From Thermoplasmatales archaeon SW_10_69_26 (GTDB lineage: Archaea > Thermoplasmatota > SW-10-69-26): a stretch of 64,000 nt of DNA. The stretch lies in NCBI GenBank assembly GCA_003009755.1, contig PXUB01000029.1:13946-77945 (forward strand), read 5' to 3'. The translations under genes were made by a program, and so were the position numbers. Of the stretch, positions 4,684 to 64,000 are shown in pieces (position 1 is the first letter of the stretch; the number at the start of each line of letters is the position of its first letter). Under the pieces are notes generated by a model that searched no databases, was not told the DNA's origin, and saw only the letters and a program-made list of their open reading frames with translations.

Positions 4684-4790
4684 GCTATCCAGATGACCGC
4701 GACAGCACTTCAACCCCTCGCCGTCCCCCCAAGGCCCCACCTGGCCCACGTGGTGAACGCCTCGACCGCGGCTTGGCTCTCCCGGCCCGG

Positions 4791-4956
4791 CTGTCTGGTT
4801 AAGCAGGGGCCGCGGAGGACACGAGGGATCGCCAAGGCCACGAAGGGCCTGTGCACTCGCCGCCGGGCGGCGTTGTCACGGCAGCTGCTCCCCGTTGTGC
4901 CCTGGCGTCCCTTCGCGTACTTGGTGGTCCCCCCCCCGTTTCTTATCCTTACAGCG
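4791..4956 (-). repeat. 165-bp dispersed repeat, copy 1 (inverted)
   Basis: Reverse complement of the repeat at 39572-39735 and 56461-56624. On the minus strand it begins gctgtaaggataagaaa, passes through the GGCCACGAAGG-type core, and ends with CTGC.TAA followed by CAGACAG. It fills the 5' region of sufS, so the sufS promoter may lie inside it (tttcttatcc, 4939-4948). Confidence 0.85.
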
Positions 4957-5016
4957 CGGCTCCCCCGGGACCCACACTTGAAGTACGAGGCTGACCCATC
5001 CCAGGACGGGCCCGAG

Positions 5017-6692: not shown

Positions 6693-6705
6693 GCGATCGC
6701 GATCG

Positions 6706-6748
6706 GCGCGGACCACACAGAGCCACGGAAACACAGAGGCACAGAGGG
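6706..6748 (+). repeat. CACAGAG-type repeat, left copy
   Basis: Contains GGACCACACAGAGCCAC followed by ACACAGAGGCACAGAGG. An inverted, nearly identical copy is at 8157-8208. Short CACAGAG-type repeats are dispersed in many environmental genomes; their function is unknown. Here the pair brackets a 1.5-kb segment. Confidence 0.8.
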
Positions 6749-8156: not shown

Positions 8157-8208
8157 CAGCTCTGTGCCTCTGTGCCTCTGTGTCTCTGTGGCTCTGTGTG
8201 GTCCGCAC
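8157..8208 (-). repeat. CACAGAG-type repeat, right (inverted) copy
   Basis: Reads CTCTGTGCCTCTGTG repeated with a 9-base period, then GGCTCTGTGTGGTCCGCAC. It is the inverse complement of 6706-6748 with only a few differences. Confidence 0.85.
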
Positions 8209-8234
8209 CCACACCGAGCCGCTCTGAGCCTTCT

Positions 8235-17665: not shown

Positions 17666-17888
17666 GAAGATCCTCTTTTCGACGGGGCCTAGCCGCCTCT
17701 CGACCGGGGAAAAGGAAAATCGCTGTTAAGGAAAACCCCGGTCGGCAGCGTCCGGAGGCGCCGGTGCCGACCGTCTGGCGCCTCCGGAGAAGACGGATCT
17801 TCGATCCGTCCGAAACGCAGGCCCCAGCGCCGCTGACCTTGGGCGCTGTTGGATCCTCGCGCAGGGCTATGTCCGCCTGACGGGCAAC
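17666..17888 (+). repeat. dispersed structured element, copy 1
   Basis: Matches the reverse complement of 33031-33352 over most of its length and part of 42181-42322. Perfect stems: 17752-17763/17778-17789 (TCCGGAGGCGCC), 17794-17800/17804-17810 (ACGGATC) and 17826-17832/17843-17849 (CAGCGCC). It ends with a shared ttggatcctcgcgcagggct stretch. No coding frame is conserved between copies. The remaining gap to 18131 holds nothing else I can identify. Confidence 0.8.
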
Positions 17889-18131
17889 GACACCATCGCT
17901 CGTCGTGGGTCCCCGACGACCGCCGCCGTGCCTCCGCGACGAAGGACGAGAACCCACAGGCGCAGGGCAACGCTGACGCCGGAGCCCTCAGGCGTGCTGT
18001 CTGCCCCGCCGGCTTCGGCGCGCCGCCGGCGAGGACCTCCAACATCTCCTACCGCCGTCACGTCGTCGCGGATCAGGGGTGTGAACCCGTTCGCGTCGAT
18101 GGCCGCACCAGCCGTGGTACCGTCCGGTCCG

Positions 18132-32996: not shown

Positions 32997-33030
32997 GGCG
33001 CGGGACCCACGCGGGTCCGCTCGCGTCGAA

Positions 33031-33352
33031 GCTCGTCAGGCGGACATAGCCCTGCGCGAGGATCCAACAGCGTCTAAGGTCAGCAACGCTGGGGTCTGCG
33101 TTTCGGACGGATCGAAGATCCGTTCTCTCCCGAGGCGCCAGACGGTCGGCACCGGCGCCTCCGGACGCTGGCGACCCCAGTTTTCTTCCGGAGATCGGCG
33201 ACACCGTTCGGTCTCCGGAGAGGCCGAAGCTCCGCTTCGGCCGGATTGCGAGGGTTCCTGCCGCCAGGCGAACCCTCCATCTTAACAGCGAAGATTTCTT
33301 TTCCCCGGTCGAGAGGCGGCTGGGCCCCGTCGAAAAGAAGATCTTCTATTCG
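33031..33352 (-). repeat. dispersed structured element, copy 2 (inverted)
   Basis: Reverse complement of the element at 17666-17888, with about 100 extra bases inserted between its two halves; the insert carries its own inverted repeats (CTCCGGAGA-type and GGCCGAAGC/GCTTCGGCC). Stem 33068-33073/33086-33091 (CAGCGT/ACGCTG) replaces CAGCGC/GCGCTG of copy 1, a paired change. It overlaps the stop codon of the YbaK-like gene. No coding frame. Confidence 0.8.
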
Positions 33353-33822
33353 ACGAAGTCGCCCTTCGAGACGTCGGGCAGCTTGCGGAGGTCGGCGGCC
33401 TTGATCTCGAGCATGACGTCCTCGCTGCCGCCGCCGACGTACACCATGTCCTGGTCGAGCACGCGCTGGTCGATGAGCGTGCGGAGCGGGCGTTCGTGCC
33501 CGATGGGCGGTACGGCGCCGACGGGGTAGCCGGTGAAGGACTGGATCTCGTCGGGTTCGGCCAGGCGCACGTTCTCCTCGGCGTCGACGCTGACGTGGTC
33601 GGCGACCTTCTCGAGCGAGACGACGTCGGGGCCGCGCACCAGCACGACCACGGGCTCCTCGTCGGCGACCATGAGCACGATGCTCTTCCCGATCTGGTCG
33701 GCCTCCACATCGAGGGCGTCGGCTGCGGCTTGCACCGTGCTGGCATCCTGGAGCTGCGCGTGGAGGTCCGCCTGGATGCGGAGCTCCTCCGCTGTCCGTT
33801 CGACGTCCGAGGAGTCTCGCAT
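33346..33822 (-). CDS. YbaK/ProX-like aminoacyl-tRNA deacylase
   Basis: A 158-residue YbaK/EbsC-family protein, which hydrolyses mischarged tRNAs. Seen: the substrate-pocket lysine in ADQIGKSIVLMV, then VVLVRGPDVVSLEK, and TGYPVGAVPPIGH (GxxPPxG motif), all typical. ATG 33822 (MRDSSDVERTAEEL) is chosen; the longer frame adds Ser/Ala-rich noise. Its stop codon lies inside the dispersed element. Confidence 0.9.
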   Translation of the reverse strand: MRDSSDVERTAEELRIQADLHAQLQDASTVQAAADALDVEADQIGKSIVLMVADEEPVVVLVRGPDVVSLEKVADHVSVDAEENVRLAEPDEIQSFTGYPVGAVPPIGHERPLRTLIDQRVLDQDMVYVGGGSEDVMLEIKAADLRKLPDVSKGDFVE

Positions 33823-39571: not shown

Positions 39572-39735
39572 GCTGTAAGGATAAGAAATGGGGGGGACCA
39601 CCATGTACGCGAAGGGACGCCAGGGCACAAAGGCGAGCAGCTGCCGTGACAAAGCCGCCCGGCGGCGAGTACACAGGCCCTTCGTGGCCTTGGCGATCCT
39701 TCGTGTCCTTCGCGGCCCTGCTTAACGAGACAGTC
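39572..39735 (+). repeat. 165-bp dispersed repeat, copy 2
   Basis: From gctgtaaggataagaaatg to cttaacgagacag; about 90% identical by eye to 56461-56624 and to the inverse of 4791-4956. Its right end overlaps the beginning of the lipoprotein gene, supplying its start codon. Confidence 0.85.
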
Positions 39736-42180: not shown

Positions 42181-42440
42181 GGCCTTGGCGTCTCTCGACA
42201 GGGTGAAAAAGACGGATCTTCGGCAACGAGGAAACCTCCTCGGGAGCGACCCAGCCGCCAGCGTCGCTGGTCTCGGGCGCGGTTGGATCCTCGCGCAAGG
42301 CTCCCTCGGCTTGACGGGCAGTGGTGTAAGTCCTGGCGTGGGGGGTCCGACGCCGGGAAACGAGATCCTCGGCGAGGAGGGGAACGGGGGTCCGGCGTCC
42401 GTCGGCCGGCGCCTTGGACTTCGTGGAGGACCATCCCCCC
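42181..42440 (+). repeat. dispersed structured element, copy 3 (partial), with further inverted repeats
   Basis: 42181-42322 shares tctctcgac, gacggatcttc and cagcg-gctg...ggttggatcctcgcgca with the copies at 17666 and 33031 but lacks the long GGCGCC stem. 42340-42440 holds a GACGCCGG/CCGGCGTC pair around TCCTCG/CGAGGA. No reading frame looks coding in 42097-42503. Confidence 0.65.
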
Positions 42441-49861: not shown

Positions 49862-50059
49862 GTGGAGTGGAGCCCCGTGTACATCGAACCCGACGATTCG
49901 GACGAGGAGACCAAGACCGTGAAGGTGAAGCTGCCCGCCGACCTCTACCTCAAGCTGCACAGCTTGAAGGTCCTCGAGGGCGGCACGATCAGCGAGCGCG
50001 TCGAGACGGCTCTCGACTCGCACTTCGAGGGCACGCCCTTCGCGGATCTGGAAGGCTAG
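49862..50059 (+). CDS. ribbon-helix-helix DNA-binding protein
   Basis: From GTG 49862, 65 residues. After an acidic start (EPDDSDEETK) comes the RHH unit: strand TVKVKLPADLY, helix LKLHSLKVLEG, turn GTIS, helix ERVETALDSHFE. It probably acts as a dimeric repressor. TTG 49853 or GTG 49877 are alternative starts. A palindrome lies upstream. Confidence 0.7.
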   Translation: MEWSPVYIEPDDSDEETKTVKVKLPADLYLKLHSLKVLEGGTISERVETALDSHFEGTPFADLEG

Positions 50060-56460: not shown

Positions 56461-56624
56461 GCTGTAAGGATAAGAAACGGGGGGGGACCACCAAGTACGC
56501 GAGGGGACGCCAGGGCACAACGGGGAGCAGCTGCCGTGACAAGGCCGCCCGGCGGCGAGTCACAGGCCCGTCGTGGCCTTGGCGATCCTTCGTGTCCTTC
56601 GCGGCCCCTGCTTAACGAGACAGC
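56461..56624 (+). repeat. 165-bp dispersed repeat, copy 3
   Basis: gctgtaaggataagaaacgg to cttaacgagacag. Same orientation as copy 2. It occupies most of the gap between nep1 and the ABC transporter genes. On its minus strand each of the three copies keeps an open frame with LSRQLL and VPWRP, which may be chance. Confidence 0.85.
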
Positions 56625-56667
56625 CGGCCGGTGGGCAAGAGGGCGCCGGCGCCGCCGCGGCCCCGGT

Positions 56668-63890: not shown

Positions 63891-64000
63891 ACTGCCGGCT
63901 GTGCTTGGGTTAGGCTCTCGCCGCCCTCAGGCGGTGAAAGCGCGGAGCCGAGACGAAGGTTCGCCCGGATCGAAGATCCGGACTCTCGCGAGGATCCGCC
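63888..64000 (+). repeat. 3'-flank repeat, second copy, running off the window
   Basis: From the stop codon, TAGACTGCCGGCTGTGCTTG and ggttaggctctcgc match 50057-50098. It continues with hairpin CCGCC/GGCGG, a CGGATC-gaa-GATCCG hairpin like that of the dispersed structured elements, and tcgcgaggatcc. Confidence 0.7.

Follow-up and report, generated by a model that had tools for sequence, protein, structure and literature searches.

What kind of element recurs between the genes of Thermoplasmatales archaeon SW_10_69_26, folded but without a shared reading frame? The window analysed here is a stretch of 64,000 nucleotides (69% GC) from a 2.8 Mb assembly, whose gene content includes Gins51, the DNA primase small subunit (PriS), eIF2-alpha and ribosomal S27e and therefore identifies the host as an archaeon. 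A sequence-only reading of the window had described three intergenic copies sharing long blocks, and had proposed a structured RNA or a non-autonomous mobile element, perhaps an undescribed one.

Copies and distribution of the element

A BLASTN run of the window against itself bore out the three related sites (Table 1). Copies 1 and 2 match in two segments (17731-17913 with 33185-33002, 88% identity, E 4e-62; 17666-17730 with 33346-33281, 91%, E 3e-20), and the insert that interrupts the match is present in copy 2 only. Copy 3, which follows a cold-shock protein gene at a distance of 65 bp, aligns with copy 1 over 17815-17886 and 42249-42320 (81%, E 9e-14); its fold is no better than that of shuffled sequence (z -0.03), and the corresponding value for copy 1 is -2.95. 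The start at 17666 proposed for copy 1 is the true 5' end for the whole family, but copy 1 ends at about 17908 and not at 17888, and the 3' boundary of the family is fuzzy. An element without inserts would measure about 170-190 nt, and one with inserts 210-345 nt. As had been supposed, the copies do not share a uniform translated frame.

The family extends well beyond the window. A genome-wide DNA search returned 28 matches in the element's own genome, and a covariance model built from 15 copies trimmed by hand returned 35, which correspond to approximately 25 sites because some sites, being split, tandem or insert-bearing, account for several matches each. At C32:56124-56523 the 3' half of the element is repeated two further times in tandem, decaying as it goes. 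There was no match to the element in 388 further genomes from the same phylum, in 40 relatives, in plasmids or in the same-family genome (75% complete), and a deeper scan of the three nearest relatives yielded noise only, the best E value of 0.15 falling in genomes outside the family. Scans for the exact core pattern gave no matches in viral contigs or in GTDB r220, from which the own genome may be left out. A match of 73 nt in a phage collection (E 7e-3) was taken as chance, and matches in L024 and L028 belong to a separate small hairpin repeat. The only Rfam match in the window at the gathering threshold is a tRNA elsewhere; the best match of copy 1 falls below gathering, and none of the eight best copies matches a family at E<=1, group I/II introns, HEARO and the known ribozymes included.

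Other repeats share this genome. A second dispersed family of 165-190 nt, with copies 93-95% identical, runs from GCTGTAAGGATAAGAAACGGGGGGG to GCTTAACGAGACAG (Table 1), and a short repeat, CACACAGAGCCACAGAGRCACAGAGG, occurs at 6705-6747 and 8167-8209 of the window and in L057. At L028:1440-1640 the last codons of a gene make up the loop between two inverted arms; these codons recur about 100 nt further on, where the stem is changed.

Table 1. Positions of the element copies, of the parts of copy 1 and of associated features (window coordinates unless a contig is named)
Feature	Position	Strand	Basis
Copy 1, complete, with an optional insert where c' meets b'	17666..17908	+	BLASTN; model match G000:C29:31625-31834, 99.5 bits
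Copy 2, with a further insert separating the two BLAST segments; stem c degraded	33002..33346	-	BLASTN
Copy 3, decayed	42162..~42325	+	BLASTN; model match, 116.3 bits
Stem S1, U-rich 5' strand	17666..17680	+	sequence; cognate duplex test
Stem b, 5' strand GGGGCCT	17684..17690	+	covariance model
Stem c, 5' strand, helix covarying most strongly	17694..17708	+	covariation; cognate duplex test
Stem S1, A-rich 3' strand, crossing stem c	17706..17721	+	cognate duplex test
Stem c, 3' strand	17736..17750	+	covariation; cognate duplex test
Optional insert with hairpins TCCGGAGGCGCC/GGCGCCTCCGGA and ACGGATC/GATCCGT (stems 1 and 2 of the sequence-only reading)	17751..17818	+	
Stem b, 3' strand AGGCCCC	17819..17825	+	covariance model
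d hairpin CAGCGCC/GGCGCTG (stem 3 of the sequence-only reading)	17825..17848	+	
Tail conserved in sequence (TTGGATCYTCGCGCAGGGCTATNNYCGCYTGACGGGC) and small 3' hairpin	17849..17908	+	
Aminoacyl-tRNA editing domain protein, host of copy 2, ends F-V-E-stop	33346..33822	-	Pfam tRNA_edit, E 3.6e-28
GCTGTAAGGATAAGAAACGGGGGGG ... GCTTAACGAGACAG family	4782-4972	-	
GCTGTAAGGATAAGAAACGGGGGGG ... GCTTAACGAGACAG family	39572-39733	+	
GCTGTAAGGATAAGAAACGGGGGGG ... GCTTAACGAGACAG family	56461-56640	+	
GCTGTAAGGATAAGAAACGGGGGGG ... GCTTAACGAGACAG family	L052:1103-1276		

A covarying pseudoknot

From 5' to 3' the element is composed of the U-rich strand of stem S1, the 5' strands of stems b and c, the A-rich strand of S1 and an A-rich linker, followed by the 3' strands of c and b, the d hairpin and a conserved tail. 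Since S1 crosses b and c, the arrangement is an H-type pseudoknot, made of stem c (12-14 bp) and the U-rich/A-rich stem S1. Stem c shows two-sided change in 8 of its 14 pairs, and C-G to G-C swaps recur at many positions. For the model as a whole, which omits S1, the covariation score is 0.245 as compared with 0.128 after shuffling (0 of 500 shuffles as high), and sliding the stem partners against each other lowers pairing from 90% to below 50%. When each copy's own strands were compared with strands swapped between copies, the cognate duplexes were the more stable for both stem c (-21.8 against -12.8 kcal/mol) and S1 (-11.2 against -7.7 kcal/mol), with 0 of 20,000 permutations as good in either case, although these duplex tests, like the covariation score, overstate independence because the copies are related. 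The S1 pairing of copy 1 itself is weak (-6.1 kcal/mol). Copies of class GAR typically form S1 from GAGCATTTTTCTTT and AAAGAAAAATCCTC, or from GAACATTTTC and GAAAATCTTC, and in GACCC copies the 5' end pairs with GGTC. The fold thus carries compensatory change strongly above chance, as had been anticipated, and both the covariation and the dispersal of the copies are solid.

If sense RNA alone were selected, G.U pairs and A.C mismatches should differ in number; the counts are 7 and 6, nearly equal, in stem c, the helix that covaries most, 0 and 8 in stem b, 6 and 1 in d, and 17 and 3 in the tail. The original proposal of a structured RNA or a non-autonomous mobile element fits the covariation, the confinement of the dispersed copies to their own genome and the lack of an Rfam match; the fold may function in RNA or in single-stranded DNA. 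A pairing of the upstream TTC with a GAA in the loop before c' showed no covariation by eye.

The stems on which that proposal had been built turned out to be largely peripheral. All three that it named in copy 1 (TCCGGAGGCGCC, ACGGATC and CAGCGCC) are present, but its case for folding was weak, being drawn from one stem in two copies; two of the three sit in inserts, and the most strongly supported stems are ones that it left unnamed. The third does vary in copy 2 with pairing kept, but only partly so as a general rule, its outer pairs at alignment columns 88-111, 89-110 and 90-109 holding in 15, 9 and 7 of 15 copies. Insert hairpins of the copy 1 type are missing from most copies, and optional hairpins occur at two fixed places, in the linker before the c 3' strand and between the c and b 3' strands. 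The ACGGATC/GATCCGT hairpin is also found outside the element. A mobile-looking hairpin, GAGAGGACGGATCTNCGATCCGTCCGAA, lies at 17793-17809, 33102-33135 and 63960-63993 of the window and in L024, L028 and L078, and some of its occurrences fall within copies of the main element. In L024 it adjoins a tRNA gene on whose flanks some 100 bp are duplicated. The sequence-only reading did not include the pseudoknot, the start of the element next to stop codons and in sense, the TTC motif ahead of it, or the fact that copy 3 has decayed.

Gene ends and the preferred site

Genes near the copies were called with a simple codon-usage gene finder, and none of them is interrupted by the element. Among the 20 copies with an intact 5' end (the contig-end copies L038, L043 and L044 being left out), 11 begin within 0-2 nt of the upstream gene's stop codon, all on the same strand, with the GA of the element supplying the end of the stop codon (TA/G or T/GA, the slash marking the junction). 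In copy 1 the GA completes TGA in ...TTCTCCCCC T/GA, and copy 2 starts at the TAG stop (33348-33346) of its host gene. The stop-adjacent host genes, mostly named by their sequence rather than by profile (that of copy 2 by Pfam), include S27ae, PheS, RtcB, archease, NMD3, a peptidyl-prolyl isomerase and the tRNA-editing-domain protein. The element begins with GAR(C/G) or GACCC, and these two starts differ in their surroundings: none of the five GACCC-ended copies lies at a stop codon as opposed to 11 of 14 others (p 0.005), and all five adjoin a divergent gene. Inspection by eye for promoters of their own upstream of the GACCC-type copies showed no consistent TATA box.

The sequence preceding the element was compared with a sample of 464 kb containing 376 genes, or 375 without the host of copy 2. 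Phenylalanine, encoded by TTC, stands three codons before the stop in 8 of 11 host genes and in 3 of the 375 others (Fisher 2e-12; 4 of 376 when the host of copy 2 is counted), and the stop is TAG in 9 of 11 hosts against 96 of 375 (26%) in the sample (p 2e-4). TTC-N6-TGA also precedes two non-coding copies, L040 and L007, and GACCC-type copies lack the TTC motif except for L035, where TTC stands at the right spacing. GAR copies therefore sit in sense at gene ends and prefer a site resembling TTC-N6-T(A)/, and the use of TAG rather than the usual TGA of this genome argues for a DNA site and not for a role of the stop codon.

Comparison with the same-family genome is in keeping with such a site. 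At the NMD3 locus 229 nt separate the start of the element from the convergent neighbour, whereas in the relative the stop codons of NMD3 and that neighbour abut. The archease gene of the relative ends TTCGACGTT TGA (F-D-V-stop) without an element, and therefore the motif there is older than the insertion. Taken with the enrichment of Phe/TTC and TAG, the archease end and the NMD3 gap favour insertion at a preferred DNA site, and mobility of the element is likely. The sole clear empty site is in a genome only about 57% identical at the protein level, so that loss in the relative is possible.

Mobile element or regulatory RNA

On balance, the element is probably a lineage-specific, non-autonomous mobile element. 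The enzyme that moves it would most likely recognise the fold, as RNA or as single-stranded DNA, and stop codons may be favoured because they contain the preferred site and tolerate insertion without harm, by analogy with the IS630 copy of this genome. That transposon (HTH and DDE_3 domains) and many short relatives have the ends TAGACTGCCGG...CCGGCAGTCTA and occur at L085:9545-10676, at 50057, 55688 (-) and 63888 of the window and in L090, L098, L099 and L102. The transposon lies precisely within the stop codon, TAG, of a helicase gene, and many of the 17 IS630-type ends in 464 kb are at TAG stops, which indicates that adjacency to stop codons can arise from target choice and tolerance alone. 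Against mobility stand the fuzzy 3' boundary and the lack of terminal inverted repeats and target-site duplications: the longest 5'/3' inverted match is 4-6 nt, no longer than for unrelated copies, direct repeats in the flanks (4-5 nt) equal those of non-cognate flanks, and nothing of at least 6 nt exceeds chance, in a test that a 2-bp TA duplication would escape. So do the searches for a mobiliser, with no matches to a reverse transcriptase (PF00078) or, with controls detected, to a Y1 transposase (PF01797) in the 95% complete genome, and TnpB (PF07282) matches that number four, all below the cut-off (E 0.02-0.08); three tyrosine recombinases are encoded. The GACCC copies, mostly without TTC and upstream of divergent genes, also speak against it, as do hosts that look rich in translation and RNA functions, needlessly so for a mobile element.

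These hosts are the starting point for the strongest competing explanation, a host 3'-UTR regulatory RNA that controls mRNA 3'-end formation, stability or U-tract termination for translation and RNA-processing genes. Archaeal terminators employ U-tracts together with aCPSF1 (PMC8716108). T-tracts follow 1 of 39 stops in the window, that of copy 2, and 4 of 376 in the 464-kb sample, copy 2 again being one; they are otherwise rare, so that the tract comes with the element, which brings it to gene ends normally lacking one. The invariably sense orientation of the stop-adjacent class, the U-tract and the RNA-related hosts (S27ae, PheS, RtcB, archease, NMD3 and the tRNA-editing-domain protein, mostly named by sequence) leave this explanation some weight, but it is nevertheless judged unlikely, given that the same-family genome has the host genes without the element, that GACCC copies lie upstream of divergent genes, that hosts are biased towards TAG, and that copies have decayed and been duplicated in tandem.

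More doubtful is a new class of archaeal mobile element in which a pseudoknotted RNA, either ribozyme or guide, would direct insertion to stop codons at a TTC-N6-TA site, served by a mobilising enzyme of unknown family. A self-cleaving or self-processing ribozyme, analogous to those that R2 retroelements carry at their 5' ends and with the cleavage site at its 5' G on the stop codon, is very improbable: the first stem of the pseudoknot does begin exactly at the host junction and the peripheral hairpins are optional and confined to two places, but no Rfam ribozyme matches at E<=1, the genome lacks a reverse transcriptase and the stem order, judged by eye from general knowledge, is unlike that of HDV-like ribozymes. 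HDV-like ribozymes have a P3 hairpin between the P1 strands, which is missing from the element. Descent as a MITE from a TA-targeting transposon such as the IS630 copy, whose ends (TA/GACTGCCGG) also lie on TAG stops and which the element resembles in having GA after TA, is largely refuted by the missing terminal inverted repeats, the 5' end having no inverted counterpart at the 3' end, with no direct duplication and many insertions away from TA, and hardly merits consideration.

Known systems match the element only in part. The bacterial repeats ERIC/IRU, RU, NEMIS and BOX are likewise intergenic, folded, lineage-specific repeats of 100-200 nt in tens of copies without coding capacity; most form long hairpins and have terminal inverted repeats, whereas the element has a crossing pseudoknot, no such repeats and a precise 5' end next to stop codons. 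REP/RAYT and IS200/IS605 elements share a folded structure without target-site duplication, a short motif 5' of the structure and a frequent location near gene ends, but no Y1 transposase is encoded here and the pseudoknotted fold is larger. IS630-type MITEs enter TAG stops in this same genome, but the element lacks both their terminal inverted repeats and their TA target. The attC sites of integron cassettes are selected for structure and directly follow a stop codon in sense; they contain R and L boxes in a palindrome of 57-141 nt and are served by an integron integrase. A GTTGGAT string in the d region resembles the attC GTTRRRY box, but it is the one attC-like string seen, its hairpin spans only about 30 nt and the copies are dispersed behind housekeeping genes rather than arrayed. 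HEARO/omega RNAs and TnpB reRNAs are also pseudoknotted RNAs attached to mobile elements, but the element has no Rfam match and the genome no TnpB above the cut-off.

Small folded repeats are common, and among them a strongly covarying pseudoknot that starts exactly at stop codons behind a fixed upstream motif is unusual; this one comes from a lineage of archaea for which very few genomes exist. Were the element a host regulator, it would constitute an archaeal 3'-UTR RNA regulon; if it is mobile, it points to a mobilising enzyme able to recognise either folded RNA or single-stranded DNA.
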